NCBI RefSeq assembly: GCF_020966755.1
Contig: NZ_JAJKFT010000009.1
Span: forward strand, 1-64,000
DNA: 64,000 nucleotides
Direction of reading: 5' to 3'
Source of the DNA: Blastopirellula sediminis
Lineage (GTDB): Bacteria; Planctomycetota; Planctomycetia; Pirellulales; Pirellulaceae
Positions within the stretch are counted from its first letter, which is position 1. Each line of letters opens with the position of its first letter. The notes below the pieces were generated by a model. That model was not told where the DNA came from. It saw only the letters and a list, made by a program, of their open reading frames with translations, and searched no databases. Shown here in pieces: positions 20,401 through 31,580 of this stretch. Position numbers and translations under genes: made by a program.

Positions 20401-21388
20401 CAGCTTTTTGCACGAGTCGCTCTAAGTCGCTTGCGGTTTTCGCCGTTTGAGGCCGTTGAGGATCAGTTTGGCTTGGACCCAGCGGCGGACGCGGCGGTAG
20501 GTTCTGGCCCAGGCCGGTAGGCATGCGAGCCCGCCGCCCCAATTCGTTAAGTTGCCGAAGAAGCGTTCGATCGCCACGCGTTCGTCCAGGATCTGTTGCG
20601 CGATTCGCGGATCCGAGTCTTCCAGAATTTCCTTCGAACGCAGTCGGCCGGCCGTTTGCGGACGATGCCCGAACCCTTTGCCTGGTCCGTAACGACGCGG
20701 GGCGATCAGTTCAATGTCGCCCCGCTCGTCGCAGATGTCGAACAGCTTATTCGAGTCGTAGTTGCCGTCCGCGACCAGACGTCCTTGGATGGTTGTGGTA
20801 CGCAGTATTCGGCGAGCGATCTCCCGTTCGTCGTCCTTCATCGACGCCATTCTCCAGTCGCCGATCGTGCCGTCTTTTCCGAAGATTAAGTGCAGTTTGT
20901 AGCCTTTCGCTTTACCGCCGGTCGCTCGACCGTACGTCGCTTGCTTGTCTTTCGAGCAGCCGCTGATCGCGAGGGGCTTGCCGTCGATAAACCAGGTTCG
21001 ACACGCGGTCGACGTAGATCTCAGCACGCGATCTTCAACCTCTTTGAGAAACGAACGGACGTCATGCGAACGCATGCGACGCGACATCGTCGCGTTCGAC
21101 GGCAACCGTTGACGTCGCTCATGAATCGGCCAGTTCTCGCGTTCGCAGGCCCAACTAATCGGGCGGTCATGAATCACCGCCCAGAACCAAACCCGCACGA
21201 CCTCGATGACGGTAAACGTGCTGCGCGGATCAAACCGCGGCTTGCCAATCTCGCGAAACGCAGCGAGAATCGATCTCCAGAGTTGGCGTTCCATGCTCGG
21301 TCTCGTTCTTAGTGGTATTTGAAAGAGACTAACATGAACGCCAACTTCTTTTTGCGCAATACCTTATCGCGACTGGCGCAAAAAGCTG
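20401..21388. mobile_element. Insertion sequence, 988 bp, IS4/IS5-like DDE family
   Basis: Imperfect terminal inverted repeats of 20 bp, 18 of 20 matching: CAGCTTTTTGCACGAGTCGC at 20401-20420 and its counterpart at 21369-21388. They bracket one intact transposase gene. A 4-bp direct repeat GCAA flanks the ends (20397-20400 and 21389-21392). A subterminal palindrome (TTTTTGCGC 21349-21357 / GCGCAAAAA 21376-21384) lies at the right end. The element looks complete and recent. The exact IS family would need a curated IS comparison. Confidence 0.85.
20422..21294 (-). CDS. DDE transposase
   Basis: The 290-residue transposase fills the insertion sequence. Catalytic-triad candidates are the Asp in WFIDGKPLAISG (about residue 104), the Asp in RLVADGNYDS (about 175) and the Glu in ERVAIERFFGNL (about 240). 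The last lies in the Y/E-R/K helix typical of IS4/IS5-type enzymes. The N-terminal region (VWFWAVIHDRPISWAC) resembles the helical domain preceding the DDE core. No frameshift or internal stop is present, so it may be active. The ATG at 21294 lies inside the inverted repeats, and the stop is 1 nt inside the left repeat. Confidence 0.88.
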   Translation of the reverse strand: MERQLWRSILAAFREIGKPRFDPRSTFTVIEVVRVWFWAVIHDRPISWACERENWPIHERRQRLPSNATMSRRMRSHDVRSFLKEVEDRVLRSTSTACRTWFIDGKPLAISGCSKDKQATYGRATGGKAKGYKLHLIFGKDGTIGDWRMASMKDDEREIARRILRTTTIQGRLVADGNYDSNKLFDICDERGDIELIAPRRYGPGKGFGHRPQTAGRLRSKEILEDSDPRIAQQILDERVAIERFFGNLTNWGGGLACLPAWARTYRRVRRWVQAKLILNGLKRRKPQAT

Positions 21389-21541: not shown

Positions 21542-22207
21542 TTACTGCGCGTGACACGCGAGACAGCTATTGGTCACTGCGGCGATGGCGGTCGGAGTTG
21601 ACGCGGCCGGTTTCGCTTGCGGATCGCGGCTGTGATGGTGGCACTCGCTGCAGCAGGTCAGATGGGCGAGCGACGGGCCTTCCAGCGTCGCGGCGACTTG
21701 CACGATTCCCTCCGAAGGCCGCGCGGACTTGCGCGGCTGGCAGACCGCCGGGAGCGAAAGATTCGCCAGATAGCGTTCGGCTTCCAGTTTCACATCGGCC
21801 AACGAGCGACCGGCGCCGCCGGGAGCAGCCGGAGCGTGCGAGCCCCAAAAGGTTGCGACAACTAGCAGCGCGACAAGGACTGCCGCCACGGGAACGGCGA
21901 TGTTGAGCCAGGGAGCTTGTGCCTGCGACGGACGGATCGGCGGATTGGTCCAGCCAGCTTCGGCGGTGCGCCAAAAATCGCCGTCGACCTGCGGCAAGCG
22001 GCTCGCTTCTTCCGGCAAGGTTTCGGCCAGTTCGCTGGTCGCCGGACGGAGGGCTTCGGCCAAAGTGCGGCAATCATGGCAACAGCACAGATGACGCTCG
22101 ACGGCGTTGTCCGTGCCGGCGTCACCAGTTGGAAACGGGGCGCGAGTGAGGATCTCAAAAACCTCATCGCAAGTCGCCAGGCGAATGGAATCGGAACGAC
22201 TAATCAT
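21542..22207 (-). CDS. Anti-sigma factor with two C-terminal CXXCH (haem c-like) motifs
   Basis: The 221-residue, three-part protein has a cytoplasmic zinc-binding anti-sigma motif H-x3-C-x2-C (HLCCCHDC, about residues 35-42). A single transmembrane helix (about 97-122, IAVPVAAVLVALLVVATFW) follows. The periplasmic tail ends in two CXXCH motifs, CSECH (about residue 188) and CLACH (about 217). The ATG at 22207 overlaps the end of the sigma gene by 8 nt, the usual coupled arrangement. It should bind and hold the upstream ECF sigma factor. CXXCH motifs in an exported tail normally bind haem c, so the protein could sense redox state or haem; a zinc site is the alternative. The combination is unusual. 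Confidence 0.8.
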   Translation of the reverse strand: MISRSDSIRLATCDEVFEILTRAPFPTGDAGTDNAVERHLCCCHDCRTLAEALRPATSELAETLPEEASRLPQVDGDFWRTAEAGWTNPPIRPSQAQAPWLNIAVPVAAVLVALLVVATFWGSHAPAAPGGAGRSLADVKLEAERYLANLSLPAVCQPRKSARPSEGIVQVAATLEGPSLAHLTCCSECHHHSRDPQAKPAASTPTAIAAVTNSCLACHAQ

Positions 22208-22808
22208 GGAAGTGCTCTCCAACCGGGCCGGCGTCAATCGCCTCGGCCGACAGAAGCTCGGTCAAACGAATCATTCCCTTACGAACTCGGGCCTTGGCGG
22301 CCGGCAGGCTGCATCCCAGCGAATCAGCAATCTCTTGAAACTTCATCTGGCCAAAAAAGCGAAGGCGAACCGCCTCGGCCTGGGACGGCGTCAGTTCGGT
22401 CAGCAGTTGGCGGACATGCTCACGCCGCTCGGCCGTAATCATCGCGGCCAACGGATCGGCCGCCGCGTCATCGGCCTGGTAGGCGATCGCCGGCAGATCT
22501 CCCATTTCGTTCTCGGCCCGCCGTGCGGTCCGTTGATGGAGCCGATTGCAGTTGTTGATCAGGATCGTCCAGAGCCAGGTCCGGAAGCTATACCGCGAGT
22601 CGTACGTATCAAGCCAACGGAAGGCGTTCAAGAACGTCTGCTGAACGGCGTCCTCCGCTTCCTGCTGGCGTCCCAGTCGGCTCATCGCCAGGCGGAGCAG
22701 CGGCGATTGATAGCGCCGGACGATCTCGGCGAACTTTTCTCGCTGACCAGACAAAACGGCGGTCAGCAATTCGCCGTCGGTCGGTTCTCGGTCGGGCGCC
22801 TGGGTCAT
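22200..22808 (-). CDS. ECF RNA polymerase sigma factor
   Basis: About 202 residues from the ATG at 22808; a TTG 51 nt upstream is less likely. Region 2 is seen in FAEIVRRYQSPLLRLAMSRL and EAEDAVQQTFLNAFRWL, region 2.4 in FRTWLWTILINNCNRLHQR, and region 4 in LTELTPSQAEAVRLRFFGQMKFQEIADSLGCSLPAAKARVRKGMIRL, with its helix-turn-helix. It directs RNA polymerase to stress-regulon promoters and is probably held by the overlapping anti-sigma factor. It may control itself; the 205-nt gap to the divergent DUF1559 gene could hold its promoter. Confidence 0.92.
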   Translation of the reverse strand: MTQAPDREPTDGELLTAVLSGQREKFAEIVRRYQSPLLRLAMSRLGRQQEAEDAVQQTFLNAFRWLDTYDSRYSFRTWLWTILINNCNRLHQRTARRAENEMGDLPAIAYQADDAAADPLAAMITAERREHVRQLLTELTPSQAEAVRLRFFGQMKFQEIADSLGCSLPAAKARVRKGMIRLTELLSAEAIDAGPVGEHFHD

Positions 22809-23013
22809 GGTGGGAAGCGGCGGGGAGGGAAAATGGGAGCGGAATCGGCCGTCTATCAAGTGATAGCGCCAATCGCGCCGGAGGGATACCTTAGATTCTT
22901 TCCCAATCGAAGCTTTTCAGCAATCCAAACCCCACCAAGAAATAGTTCCCTTCCCCTCAATTGTGCGGTAAGATTCGGGCTTGGAACCGTCTTTGGCCGT
23001 TAGGAACTCCCTT

Positions 23014-23772
23014 ATGTCGCGATTCGTCTCTTCCCGTATCGTTCGTCGCTCTGGAAACTCGGCGGTCCCCGTGGTGATCATCGTCCTCGCGGTGGTCGGT
23101 TTCATGGTCCTTTTGTGCGGTGGAATCTTGGTGGCGTTGCTCCTTCCGGCCGTTCAACAGGCTCGTGCCGCCGCTCGCCGCATGCAGTCGACGAATAACA
23201 TGAAACAGATTGGTTTGGCGCTACATAACTACGCCGACACCTATGGAACATTTCCGCCGGCGACGATCAATGATGAAAACGGGAAGCCGATGCACTCGTG
23301 GCGCGTGCTGATTCTTCCCTTTATCGAAGAACAGTTTCTTTACAGCCAATATGATTTCAACGAACCGTGGGATGGCCCCAACAATCGCTTGTTGATGTCG
23401 CAGATGCCGATGGTCTACGCAGACCCGACCATCGATAGCCCTCCAGGAGAAGGCGCCACGTCTTACCAGGCGATTTCCGACGAGGGAACGGTCATGAATG
23501 AAACGCGGGGAAGTCTCTTCCGCGAAATCACAGACGGCACTTCCAACACCGCGCTGGTGGTCGAAAACACCGGCAAGATGGTCCCGTGGCTGCGACCCGA
23601 CGATACGAAGATCAGCGACTTCGTGCAGGGGATTCCCTTCGAGAAAGGCCCCGTCGGCGGAACGAACGTTTTGATGGCGGACGGCTCGGTGCAGTTCTTC
23701 AGCGAAACCATTGAGCCGGACGTGATCAAGGCGATCTCGACGCGCGAAGGTGGCGAGGCGGCCCATTGGTGA
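23014..23772 (+). CDS. DUF1559 pilin-like protein, copy 1
   Basis: The 252-residue protein has one N-terminal transmembrane helix (about residues 17-45, [28 protein letters not shown]), then [36 protein letters not shown], the signature of the planctomycete DUF1559/SBP_bac_10 family. The C-terminal part has [12 protein letters not shown], corresponding to the family's H-x9-DG segment. Unlike most family members it lacks the GFTLVE prepilin cleavage motif. ATG at 23014 is used, with AGGAA 10 nt upstream; a TTG at 22981 is weaker. It is the first of four consecutive paralogues. Proposed role: a surface or pseudopilin-like component; the exact function is unknown. Confidence 0.85.
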
Positions 23773-23805
23773 TACTGATTCCTCGCCAGCGAGAATTCCG
23801 AGCCG

Positions 23806-24543
23806 ATGTCCAATTGTCGTGATTCCGCTGCAACGCCATGGTCTCCGTGGCCGTTGGTCTGTTTCGTGGTCACGGCGACATTGTTGCTGCTGTTTTTCGT
23901 CGTCAGTTGGTACGCAAATCACATGCCGCGTGATGCGGCGCGGATCTTTAGTACGTCCAATGCGCTTCAGGGCATTGGATTGGCGATGCACGATTACCAC
24001 GACGTTTACGGCTCGTTTCCGCCGGCGTTTGTGGCGGATGCGAATGGTAAGCCGCTGCACTCGTGGCGCGTGTTGCTGTTGCCCTTTCTTGATGAAAGAG
24101 AGCTCTACGAAAAGTATGACTTTTCGCAACCGTGGGATGCCCCAGATAATCGAAAACTTCTCGACAAAATGCCGTGGGTCTTCCGTGATCCGCGGTTCAG
24201 GTCGGACGATCCGAGCTTGACGACTTATCAAGTCGTTGTCGGGGACGGAATGATCTTTGATCCCCAGTTTGGTCGAGTCGCGTTTCCTGATATTCGGGAC
24301 GGATCGACAGCGACGTTACTTGCGGTCGAGAATCTAGGGCACGCGGTCCCATGGACGAAGCCGGTCGATATGAGCGTTTCGGACCTCGAATCAGGCGTGC
24401 TGCTCGATAGCGCGCCGCGAGGTATGTTTGTGATTTTGATGGCCGATGGAACAAGGCAGAACGTCTACAGCAAGACGGCGGCGCAATTAAAATCGGCCGC
24501 CACGCGTAGCGGCGGCGAAACGCCTCCAAACTGGCGCCTTTAG
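23806..24543 (+). CDS. DUF1559 pilin-like protein, copy 2 (divergent)
   Basis: The 245-residue paralogue starts 33 nt after copy 1. Its membrane helix is at about residues 15-37 (PLVCFVVTATLLLLFFVVSW). It keeps GIGLAMHDYHDVYGSFPPAFVADANGKPLHSWRVLLLPF and the FVILMADGT segment. It has lost the LLLPA-AR stretch and the NMKQ motif, reading STSNALQGIGLAM instead, so it is the most divergent copy. Its location and spacing suggest co-transcription with the other three. Confidence 0.82.
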   Translation: MSNCRDSAATPWSPWPLVCFVVTATLLLLFFVVSWYANHMPRDAARIFSTSNALQGIGLAMHDYHDVYGSFPPAFVADANGKPLHSWRVLLLPFLDERELYEKYDFSQPWDAPDNRKLLDKMPWVFRDPRFRSDDPSLTTYQVVVGDGMIFDPQFGRVAFPDIRDGSTATLLAVENLGHAVPWTKPVDMSVSDLESGVLLDSAPRGMFVILMADGTRQNVYSKTAAQLKSAATRSGGETPPNWRL

Positions 24544-24555
24544 CCCTCTTCGAAA

Positions 24556-25296
24556 ATGCAGTTCATGAGAAAACCGGCGCACCTCCCGCAATCTCGACAA
24601 GGCCAATCCAACGCGACGGCGGTGATCGCCCTCGTCCTGGTCGTGTTGTTATTGATTGGTGGGGTGTTCGTCTTGTGGTTAATGCCGGCGGTCGCCGATG
24701 CGCGGGCAGCCGCCACGACCTCGGCTTCGAGTGGGCATTTGAAGGTGATCGGGCTCGCGCTGCACAACTACCACGATACCTATGGCGAGCTGCCTCCTGC
24801 CTATATCGCCGATGAGAACGGCAAGCCGATTCACTCTTGGCGGGTGTTGATCCTGCCGTTTATTGAATACGGCGACCTCTATGATCGCTACGATTTCGAC
24901 GAGCCATGGGATGCCCCCAACAATCGCTTGCTGATGCAAGAGCGCCCTGTCGTTTACGCCGATCCGCGAAATCCGGGCGAGGATCCGAAAACCACCCCTT
25001 ACCAGGCGATCGCCGGCCCCGGAACCTGTTTTGATCCGACGGTCGCCAAGATGAAGTTGGCTGAGATTACGGATGGAACGGCGGTGACGGCGATGGTTGT
25101 GGAGAATTTTGGAAAGCCGGTCATCTGGACCGAGCCGGACGATATTTCACCGCAAGAGTTTCTCTCCGGTTTACCGCTACAAGCGGCGCCGGGTGGCAAA
25201 GTGTGGGTGATGAATGCGGATACTTCCAGCAAGTTGATTAATCATTCGGAACTGGGCGCCGCCCCATCGTGGACGACCCGCGACGCCGGCGATTAG
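24556..25296 (+). CDS. DUF1559 pilin-like protein, copy 3
   Basis: 246 residues, starting 12 nt after copy 2. Transmembrane helix at about residues 22-45, then [35 protein letters not shown], the family core [14 protein letters not shown], and DPTVAKMKLAEITDGTAVTAMVVENFG. The terminal DG motif of the family is degraded (KVWVMNADTSS). It is closest to copy 4: both have the AGPG-FDPTV segment and the same W-T-x-PDD stretch. An alternative ATG lies 9 nt downstream of the chosen start. Confidence 0.82.
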   Translation: MQFMRKPAHLPQSRQGQSNATAVIALVLVVLLLIGGVFVLWLMPAVADARAAATTSASSGHLKVIGLALHNYHDTYGELPPAYIADENGKPIHSWRVLILPFIEYGDLYDRYDFDEPWDAPNNRLLMQERPVVYADPRNPGEDPKTTPYQAIAGPGTCFDPTVAKMKLAEITDGTAVTAMVVENFGKPVIWTEPDDISPQEFLSGLPLQAAPGGKVWVMNADTSSKLINHSELGAAPSWTTRDAGD

Positions 25297-25334
25297 CCGG
25301 CCAGTTTTTAGAACGTACTAGCGAGGAAATGCTC

Positions 25335-26075
25335 ATGAAAAAGCGAACTCCCCAACGCCCACGACATGGTAAGGCGAACGCCTTGGTGATTGTGCTGATC
25401 GTGGTGGGCGGCGGCTTTTTCTTCCTGTTCGTATGCGGCGGCGTGTTGGTTGCGCTTTTGTTGCCAGCGATCGCCGCGGCGCGACATACGGCGCAACAGG
25501 CGGTCGTGAGCAACAACATGAAGCAAATCGGACTGGCGCTGCACATGTATCACGAGGTCTACCACTCCCTGCCGCCCGTTTACGTCGCCGATGAGAACGG
25601 CAAGCCGATGCACTCGTGGCGGGTGCTGATCTTGCCGTTTCTCGAGCGTCAGGATCTCTACGAGTCGTACGATTTTGACGAGCCATGGGATGGCCCCACG
25701 AATAGCATGATGATGGCGGCGCGGCCGGAAGTTTATGCGGATCCGCGCGTCAGCGACGACGACGGCACGAAAACCACATTCCAGGCGATCGCTGGACCAG
25801 GCGCCCTGTTTGATCCGACCGTCCCGAAGGTCTCCTTCGCCGACGTGACCGACGGGATCTCCAATTCGGCGGCGGTGGTTGAAAACTGCGCCGATCCGGT
25901 CGTTTGGACGAAGCCGGACGATACGTCGCCGGAGGAGTTCGTCAATGGCTTCACCGTCGGCAATGCGCCGATGCAAGAGATCGTCGTGCTGAGAGGGGAC
26001 GGATCAATTTCCGTCGTGCCCAAAGAGCAATTGCCAACGCTCAAAGGTTGGACTACGCGAGCCGGCAACGACTAG
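25335..26075 (+). CDS. DUF1559 pilin-like protein, copy 4
   Basis: 246 residues from the ATG at 25335, which has AGGAA at ideal spacing; the ATG at 25329 is too close to it. Transmembrane helix at about residues 16-40 ([19 protein letters not shown]), then [41 protein letters not shown] and the family core. The C-terminal VVLRGDGSISVVPKEQLPTL keeps the DG signature. The stop overlaps the convergent universal stress gene by 4 nt. With copies 1 to 3 it forms a tandem array; copy 4 resembles copy 1 at the helix and copy 3 in the middle. Confidence 0.84.
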   Translation: MKKRTPQRPRHGKANALVIVLIVVGGGFFFLFVCGGVLVALLLPAIAAARHTAQQAVVSNNMKQIGLALHMYHEVYHSLPPVYVADENGKPMHSWRVLILPFLERQDLYESYDFDEPWDGPTNSMMMAARPEVYADPRVSDDDGTKTTFQAIAGPGALFDPTVPKVSFADVTDGISNSAAVVENCADPVVWTKPDDTSPEEFVNGFTVGNAPMQEIVVLRGDGSISVVPKEQLPTLKGWTTRAGND

Positions 26076-26503
26076 CTCTTTGGCTTTTCTGGTCGTAGTA
26101 CCAGCACCGGACAGTGGGCCAGTCGGACGACGCGATCGGTGACCGAGCCGAGCAGAACTCGCAAGATGCCGCTGCGGCCGTGCGACGGCATGATGATCAG
26201 CTTGGCGCCGATTTCGTCGGCGTATTCGGTGATCTGGTGGCCGGCGTCGCCGAACAGAACCTTGACCGTCACCTCGTTGCCGAGCTCTTTGATGATCGCT
26301 TCGGTCGCATGCTTAGTTCGGGTGGCGTGATCGACGGTGTGCCACACTTCGCCCGGCTCGGCCGGCGAGAGCTCGCCCAGCACATGCACGACATGGACTC
26401 CGCTGGGACTCCCAATCAGACCAATGGCACGGCCAACCGCTTCCTTCGAGACAGGCGAGAAGTCAAACGGCACAACGATCGGAGGGTGAGCGAGCCAGGT
26501 CAT
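26072..26503 (-). CDS. Universal stress protein (UspA family)
   Basis: The 143-residue single UspA domain starts with PPIVVPFDFSPVSKEAV (the family's N-terminal strand and Asp). It ends with IIMPSHGRSGILRVLLGSVTDRVVRLAHCPVLVLRP, the nucleotide-binding loop region. The ATP-binding pattern G-2x-G-9x-G-S is nearly present, but its first Gly is replaced by Pro (PSHG), so ATP binding is uncertain. Usp proteins support survival under stress. It is convergent with the DUF1559 array. The terminator at 26579-26603 separates it from the DUF1501 operon. Confidence 0.88.
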   Translation of the reverse strand: MTWLAHPPIVVPFDFSPVSKEAVGRAIGLIGSPSGVHVVHVLGELSPAEPGEVWHTVDHATRTKHATEAIIKELGNEVTVKVLFGDAGHQITEYADEIGAKLIIMPSHGRSGILRVLLGSVTDRVVRLAHCPVLVLRPEKPKS

Positions 26504-31067: not shown

Positions 31068-31580
31068 ATGAGTACGCCGAACGACGACAATTTGGTACCA
31101 GTCGACGACGCCGAGCAGCAGCTTGTCGCGTATCTTGACGGTGAGCTCTCGGACGACGAACGCATCGTCGTTGAAGCCCGCCTGGCCGACGACTACGACT
31201 ACCGTCAGCGCTTGCAGCGTCTGGAACGGGCCTGGGACATGCTCGACTCGCTGCCTCGAATGGAAGCGAGCGGTTCGTTCGTGCACACCACGGTCGAGAT
31301 GATCTCGCTCGCCGCGTCGCAAGAGCTCGAAACGATCCAGGATCGCCGCAAGTCGAGCACGTGGCGCGTGCTGACGATCACGTTGGCGGCGTCGCTGATC
31401 GCCGCGGTCGCCGGTTTCGCGTGGGTCAACTATTCGGCGACCAGCGAGAATCAAAAGCTGCTGACCGAGTTGCCGCTGATCGAAAACATGGACCGCTATC
31501 AAAAGGTGGACGAGGTCGAGTTCCTGGAACAGCTGCGCAAAGAAGGGCTGTTCGTTTCGGAGGTGGATGATGGCGTTTAA
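31068..31580 (+). CDS. Membrane anti-sigma factor (non-zinc)
   Basis: About 170 residues. The N-terminal cytoplasmic part LVAYLDGELSDDERIVVEARLADDYDYRQRLQRLERAW (about residues 20-57) is the short anti-sigma helical segment with the DGEL motif, without a zinc Cys pair. One transmembrane helix follows (about 105-128, WRVLTITLAASLIAAVAGFAWV), then a short periplasmic tail. The ATG at 31068 is used; an in-frame GTG at 31053 overlaps the sigma TGA and would add 5 residues. Its 3' end overlaps the next gene by 14 nt. It should sequester the upstream sigma factor. Confidence 0.78.
   Translation: MSTPNDDNLVPVDDAEQQLVAYLDGELSDDERIVVEARLADDYDYRQRLQRLERAWDMLDSLPRMEASGSFVHTTVEMISLAASQELETIQDRRKSSTWRVLTITLAASLIAAVAGFAWVNYSATSENQKLLTELPLIENMDRYQKVDEVEFLEQLRKEGLFVSEVDDGV

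Follow-up and report, generated by a model that had tools for sequence, protein, structure and literature searches.

What might an anti-sigma factor be sensing when its C-terminal tail carries the attachment motifs of a c-type cytochrome? This question is raised by a gene pair in the first 64,000 nucleotides of a Blastopirellula sediminis contig (NZ_JAJKFT010000009.1; hereafter the window), in which an ECF sigma factor gene runs into the gene of a putative anti-sigma factor with two CXXCH motifs (Table 1). Here, we propose, at a probability of roughly two in three (about 0.68), that the protein is a membrane-bound anti-sigma factor of the zinc type whose predicted periplasmic tail serves as a small sensor based on c-type haem. 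This reading suggests a previously undescribed route by which haem in the envelope controls gene expression.

Table 1. Features of the sigma/anti-sigma locus in the window
Feature	Position	Strand	Remarks
Anti-sigma factor gene	21542..22207	(-)	ATG start, TAA stop, 221 aa; family of 90 distinct sequences
Zinc anti-sigma motif, Cys13 ... His39-x3-Cys43-x2-Cys46	22070..22171	(-)	From alignments of 14 and 26 sequences
Single predicted transmembrane helix, about residues 100-122	21842..21910	(-)	AF2 helix and hydropathy
Cys156, conserved extra tail Cys (LPxxC)	21740..21742	(-)	Candidate axial ligand or thiol switch
Cys185 and the first haem-attachment motif, CSECH (186-190), together C-CSECH, residues 185-190	21638..21655	(-)	From alignment
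Second haem-attachment motif, CLACH, residues 215-219	21551..21565	(-)	From alignment; two residues from the C terminus
ECF sigma factor gene	22200..22808	(-)	202 aa from ATG; Sigma70 regions 2 and 4 over Pfam cut-off
Conserved promoter-like element, GTATC-N15-GCGCTAT	22863..22889	(-)	Ends 55 bp upstream of the sigma ATG

The N-terminal part of the protein carries the zinc anti-sigma motif that a sequence-only reading of this DNA had picked out, and Cys13, His39, Cys43 and Cys46 are invariant in all aligned sequences (14/14 and 26/26). The class I zinc anti-sigma factors ChrR, RslA and RsrA share with it the H-x3-C-x2-C arrangement, an upstream ligand, and a gene that adjoins or overlaps that of an ECF sigma factor. 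For the window protein itself, Pfam gives no family at E <= 1, zf-HC2 included; among relatives, the zf-HC2 model reaches the same threshold in 5 of 14 and in 9 of 16. A PDB profile search with the N-terminal part gave weak matches to ChrR (E 0.014) and RslA (E 0.75); a fourth match, Utp3/Sas10 (E 1.4), is unrelated and was set aside. The predicted N-terminal model, with helices at residues 13-22, 30-42 and 44-62, was aligned with eight Foldseek-candidate chains and gave a Z of 5.3 with RslA (3.2 A over 59 residues), a value common among small helical bundles, and a Z of 2.6 with ChrR (rmsd 9.5). Foldseek itself, run with the N-terminal model, returned no match at E <= 0.001 and no anti-sigma factor at E <= 10.

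The one membrane helix of the sequence-only reading is likewise predicted by AF2, and a 19-residue stretch with a mean hydropathy above 1.6 is present in 86 of the 90 family sequences. The mean net charge across the 90 is +2.5 before the helix and -0.1 after it, being greater before than after in 67 of them (with five ties), a pattern around the hydrophobic stretch that fits export of the tail. We infer from this an N-in/C-out topology, which makes the membrane side of the CXXCH motifs a prediction. The AF2 model of the full-length protein has a mean pLDDT of 66.8 and no Foldseek match at E <= 0.001; beyond residue 160 the block means fall to 39-63, giving no confident fold of the tail, where no strands are predicted (at low confidence).

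In support of the pairing with an ECF sigma factor that had been proposed for this protein, its ATG lies inside the end of the sigma gene, the two overlapping by 8 bp in the window and most often by 4 bp among relatives, which suggests translational coupling. An open reading frame finder places the sigma start at a TTG (22859), directly beside the promoter-like element, and we have therefore taken the ATG at 22808 as the start. The sigma group may already be numbered in the planctomycete ECF classifications (Wiegand 2020; Jogler 2012; Casas-Pastor 2021).

The anti-sigma family is widespread in one class of Planctomycetota, where it occurs in many genomes. A protein search found a homologue in 25 of 60 near genomes, and profile searches matched 96 genomes out of 397 in the class (E <= 0.001) and 31 out of 392 in the phylum (E <= 1e-5). 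These tallies run slightly over, as at least eight of the 96 genomes (G047, G065, G107, G124, G191, G213, G258 and G354) turned out to encode other anti-sigma-like proteins with no CXXCH and no adjoining sigma orthologue. Matches in six genomes outside the class are marginal (E 9e-7 to 6e-6); CXXCH is absent from the five of their loci that were read. At least one locus was read for every genome listed as matching in the 397-genome search, and 31 further loci came from named records, the nearest being that of Blastopirellula marina DSM 3645.

In all, 130 distinct matching open reading frames were read, with an orthologous sigma gene (at least 180 bits; observed range 182-325 bits) beside 89 of them. 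The other 41 were counted apart. Twelve of these have CXXCH: six with an adjacent sigma gene that the position rule missed (L023, L025, L090, L109, L111 and L216), two with a sigma gene at 176-177 bits (L137 and L140), and four with no sigma match (L021, L022, L139 and L219). The 29 without CXXCH comprise 13 tail-less members, the 84-residue fragment L030, the marginal L141-L145 from outside the class, and ten others, mostly unrelated anti-sigma factors, one of which (L227) has an open reading frame cut by the contig end beside a 237.9-bit sigma gene. The counts on 90 distinct sequences exclude L030 and L141-L145, and L032, a second match on the protein of L020, was dropped.

What does the tail consist of? 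In the window protein, the roughly 100 residues C-terminal of the membrane helix hold Cys156, Cys185, CSECH and CLACH, and the two CXXCH, both already seen in the sequence-only reading, are invariant across the 14-sequence alignment. That reading had named the absence of such conservation among orthologues as its refutation; instead, every one of the 89 sigma-linked sequences has one, two or three complete CXXCH, and all 146 of their tail CXXC are CXXCH. Among the 90 distinct sequences, 0, 1, 2 and 3 motifs follow the membrane helix in 13, 21, 54 and 2, respectively, and all 135 tail CXXC continue with His, a CXXC without His never being met. The third motif in L014 and L061 starts 17 and 22 residues ahead of the other two. 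As a control, six zf-HC2 matches were found in the host genome, and none of the four whose open reading frames were read has a CXXCH. Another putative protein of anti-sigma type is marked in the window by a zf-HC2 match at 31107-31178 (+) (25.6 bits).

Tails range from 42 to 226 residues in the 77 tailed sequences, most having 58-130, and diverge in sequence outside the motifs. Neighbouring CXXCH are spaced by 23-25 residues in 33 of 58 pairs, and in 39 of 77 sequences no more than five residues separate the last motif from the C terminus. A lone motif sits in surroundings like those of the second motif, preceded by a hydrophobic stretch and a Ser. A Cys is found 10-90 residues upstream of the first CXXCH in 76 of the 77, and at position -1 of the first motif in 49 of 54 two-motif sequences. 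The number of extra Cys is one in 19 of 21 one-motif tails and two in 47 of 54 two-motif tails, although these residues are less strictly kept than CXXCH itself, as the two-motif sequences L058 and L017 have none and one. For one-motif tails, an intramolecular disulphide as the sole role of the extra Cys was rejected, a single extra Cys being what 19 of these 21 have. No further His or Met is conserved near the motifs, the commonest being a His at +5, seen in 18 of the 54 two-motif sequences; His or Met is present elsewhere in most tails.

Is the tail tied to the sigma factor? A sigma homologue lies directly upstream in 74 of the 77 tailed sequences and in none of the 13 tail-less ones. Twelve of these 13 belong to one family of the same order, which retains the cytoplasmic and membrane parts of the protein. 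In its 12 genomes the best score of the sigma profile is at most 105 bits, which is the level of paralogues (the best second match in a tailed genome scores 113 bits), compared with 216-317 bits, beside the anti-sigma gene, in all six tailed comparators; thus, the sigma gene looks lost rather than moved. That one family without the sigma gene is also without the tail makes the tail appear tied to sigma output. Loss of haem attachment is not the reason for the loss of the tail, since genes of CcsA type are kept in all eight tail-less genomes tested. Three genomes that lack the anti-sigma gene lack the sigma orthologue as well (105-108 bits). Nor are the tail-less members frameshifts: 12 of 12 code for no CXXCH in three frames over the 450 nt past the stop, and the thirteenth (L059) has one CXXCH past the stop, inside a separate open frame of 850 codons. 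On a tree of the non-tail part, made by a quick method and weakly resolved with many open forks, loss of the tail takes two changes, the second being L059, which sits beside L021, itself without a neighbouring sigma gene. Joint loss of tail and sigma thus amounts to only two events, too few for a significant test. Against strict coupling, the draft genomes G053 and G046 keep two CXXCH with the sigma orthologue absent.

Chance or artefact, that is, random CXXCH in Cys-rich or misread frames, can safely be discounted, as 1000 shufflings of the same tails gave a mean of 0.83 CXXCH (maximum 5) against the 135 observed, and three other genomes of the genus have the motifs in the same frame and place at 67-69% identity. 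We consider attachment of haem to the putative sites likely. The CXXCH varies as a whole unit in which the His is always kept, the pattern expected of independent haem c sites; a C4 zinc ribbon, by our reasoning, would fail if either CXXC were lost and would have no use for the His. Weak Pfam matches to cytochrome families occur among relatives: Cytochrome_C7 in 6 of 14 (best E 1.8e-4), Paired_CXXCH in 3 of 14 (best E 9.9e-3), an NrfB-like family in 1 of 16 (E 2.4e-4), and class III cytochromes in 2 of 16 (E 1.8e-3). The only matches of the whole protein in a PDB profile search are three multihaem cytochromes, at non-significant E values (0.29-7). The host genome encodes ResB (37.4 bits) and a CcsA-type protein (102.5 bits), each scoring above its cut-off, about 2 kb apart on a single contig, and by these matches has a cytochrome c synthesis system of the ResB/CcsA type. 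The haem c-like tail put forward earlier gains support from CXXCH conservation and from the cytochrome matches, and would carry covalent haem. Doubtful, in our view, is a periplasmic sensor of zinc, of another metal or of thiol-disulphide state, in which CXXCH and an extra Cys form a C3H site and oxidation or metal loss frees the sigma factor, much as in RsrA and ChrR but outside the cytoplasm. One such site per motif is possible given the extra upstream Cys in nearly every tail, the number of extra Cys tracks that of CXXCH, and zf-CHY matches 2 of 14 members (best E 0.14); yet L058 and L017 break the tally, while the CXXCH units are always complete, and the cytochrome families outscore zf-CHY and do so in more members. 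Moreover, a single zinc would have to be bound by a Cys and its neighbouring His within one CXXCH, which is an unusual arrangement. One extra Cys per motif is also what would be expected of a Cys-ligated haem sensor: Tll0287 carries a covalent c haem from CXXCH with Cys and His as axial ligands, as described in passages of PMC12889525, and by analogy the extra upstream Cys of the tail may be an axial ligand.

Two further readings accept the motifs and dispute what they are for. In one, which we regard as a tentative variant of the haem reading, the tail would be a sentinel of cytochrome c assembly or haem supply: a bare haem-attachment peptide and not a cytochrome, in which haem loading of one to three CXXCH might keep the anti-sigma factor closed on its sigma factor and unloaded thiols would lead to degradation. 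Low haem, disturbed periplasmic thiols, a blocked assembly line, or NO displacing the Cys ligand could possibly open it, and, if true, this would amount to a checkpoint on haem assembly in the envelope with a sigma factor as output. A small tail with no confident fold and a motif near its end in about half of the sequences leaves room for little beyond an attachment substrate; against this, no gene other than sigma recurs in more than 10 of 32 neighbourhoods, so that no recurrent neighbour connects the pair with assembly genes, and pattern searches in 12 genomes found no second copy of the promoter. In the other, which is improbable, the CXXCH tail is an appendage for electron transfer or structure, unrelated to sigma control. 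Divergence of the tail outside the motifs and its survival without a sigma orthologue in the two draft genomes speak for it, but the tail is present in all 89 sequences with an orthologous sigma gene and, with the rest of the protein kept, absent from all 12 genomes of the family that has none. We hold it likely, with somewhat less assurance than haem attachment itself, that the tail controls the sigma factor, as proposed here.

How might the proposed haem sensor work? The tail of the anti-sigma factor would be exported to the periplasm, where the ResB/CcsA-type system would attach haem to each CXXCH, with the conserved extra Cys bound weakly on the distal side. A shift in haem redox state, or the binding of NO or another small ligand, would then alter the tail, and the altered tail would act on the cytoplasmic domain, through conformation or regulated proteolysis, to release the sigma factor that this inner half of the protein would otherwise hold. 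With sigma as output, such a device would provide a direct path from haem chemistry in the envelope to RNA polymerase without a phosphorelay, and would suggest a function for one planctomycete ECF sigma factor. Natural versions with none, one, two or three motifs allow the role of each putative haem site to be compared.

To our knowledge, no ChrR/RslA/RsrA-type zinc anti-sigma factor has a CXXCH in its periplasmic tail. In agreement with the earlier remark that no characterised anti-sigma factor is of this type, literature text searches returned, among the matches listed, none with a c haem or CXXCH, and none is described in passages of PMC8103513, PMC7406223, PMC8567305, PMC8396549 and PMC12889525. 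According to parts of the last of these, sCache_heme/Tll0287 domains (DUF3365) are c-haem sensors of histidine kinases, chemoreceptors, cyclases and c-di-GMP enzymes, and those fused to signalling modules show NO-sensor properties. Like them, the window protein would be an envelope sensor with CXXCH, and Tll0287 provides a precedent for a Cys/His-ligated c haem; unlike them, whose CXXCH lies inside a Cache fold, the tail has no predicted strands, at low confidence, and its output would be a sigma factor, of which there is no mention in the main text of the sCache_heme preprint (PMC12889525). The Cache domain PF11845 is absent from the window protein at E <= 1 and matches 1 of 16 relatives (E 0.98). 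In the chemoreceptors DcrA, GSU0582 and GSU0935, as presented in passages of PMC8396549, a periplasmic c haem in a PAS-like domain reports redox state or oxygen across the membrane; these drive chemotaxis and involve no sigma factor. Neither the PAS-like nor the Cache fold of the envelope c-haem sensors of known structure, as far as these passages describe them, is seen in the tail. Its likeness is rather to paired-CXXCH proteins and cytochromes c7/c3, given two CXXCH about 24 residues apart and the weak Pfam matches in several members, from which it differs in being joined to an anti-sigma domain, in often ending right after the last motif, and in conserving, around the motifs, no His or Met other than the His of CXXCH.

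What the sigma factor transcribes is suggested by the element upstream of it. Perfect GTATC-N15-GCGCTAT occurs exactly once per genome in 4 of 4 Blastopirellula genomes and in seven of the eight from a second genus, each time about 0.7 kb before the anti-sigma start (reversed control, 0), and the eighth genome of the second genus has the element with one mismatch. A further pattern, TATC-N17-GCTATAAT, hits all eight genomes of the second genus once each, always at the sigma operon, and has no site in the four Blastopirellula (reversed control, 2 across the 12 genomes). An element unique to the sigma operon suggests transcription of that operon by its own sigma factor, and we propose that the sigma factor probably uses it as a putative promoter. 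With one mismatch allowed, GTATC-N15-GCGCTAT matched 54 times in four genomes and its reversed form 77 times, hence no enrichment. Pattern searches of the four Blastopirellula and eight second-genus genomes found no target beyond the own operon and no second copy of the element, and outside the two genera the promoter model did no better than shuffles in nearly all sequences.

The surroundings of the pair vary. Leaving aside the sigma gene and antisense shadow open reading frames of the pair, every cluster is confined to 10 or fewer of 32 neighbourhoods (not all clusters being annotated), and the most frequent neighbour, in at most 10, lies at scattered distances from the pair. In the window, the anti-sigma gene is closely followed downstream by an open reading frame for a DDE transposase (PF01609, 37.4 bits; 20422-21294 (-)), which may have been inserted recently. 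Four tandem genes of DUF1559 type (22981-26075 (+)) diverge from the sigma operon, the first matching PF07596 at 149 bits and the other three being alike by clustering; in L033 and L040, similar arrays are found on the upstream side of the pair. A universal stress protein is encoded at 26072-26503 (-) (PF00582, 104 bits), and relatives of it lie less than 9 kb from the pair in 5 of the 32 neighbourhoods, counting that of the window. A response regulator judged PhoB-like by eye is found about 7 kb or less from the pair in L022, L038, L049, L059 and L062, together with a sensor histidine kinase in all of these except L022, a short locus. In 6 of 8 loci inspected in the tail-less family (L027, L028, L087, L088, L095 and L099), the upstream position of the sigma gene is taken by a peroxiredoxin-like open reading frame, by eye of the Bcp type.
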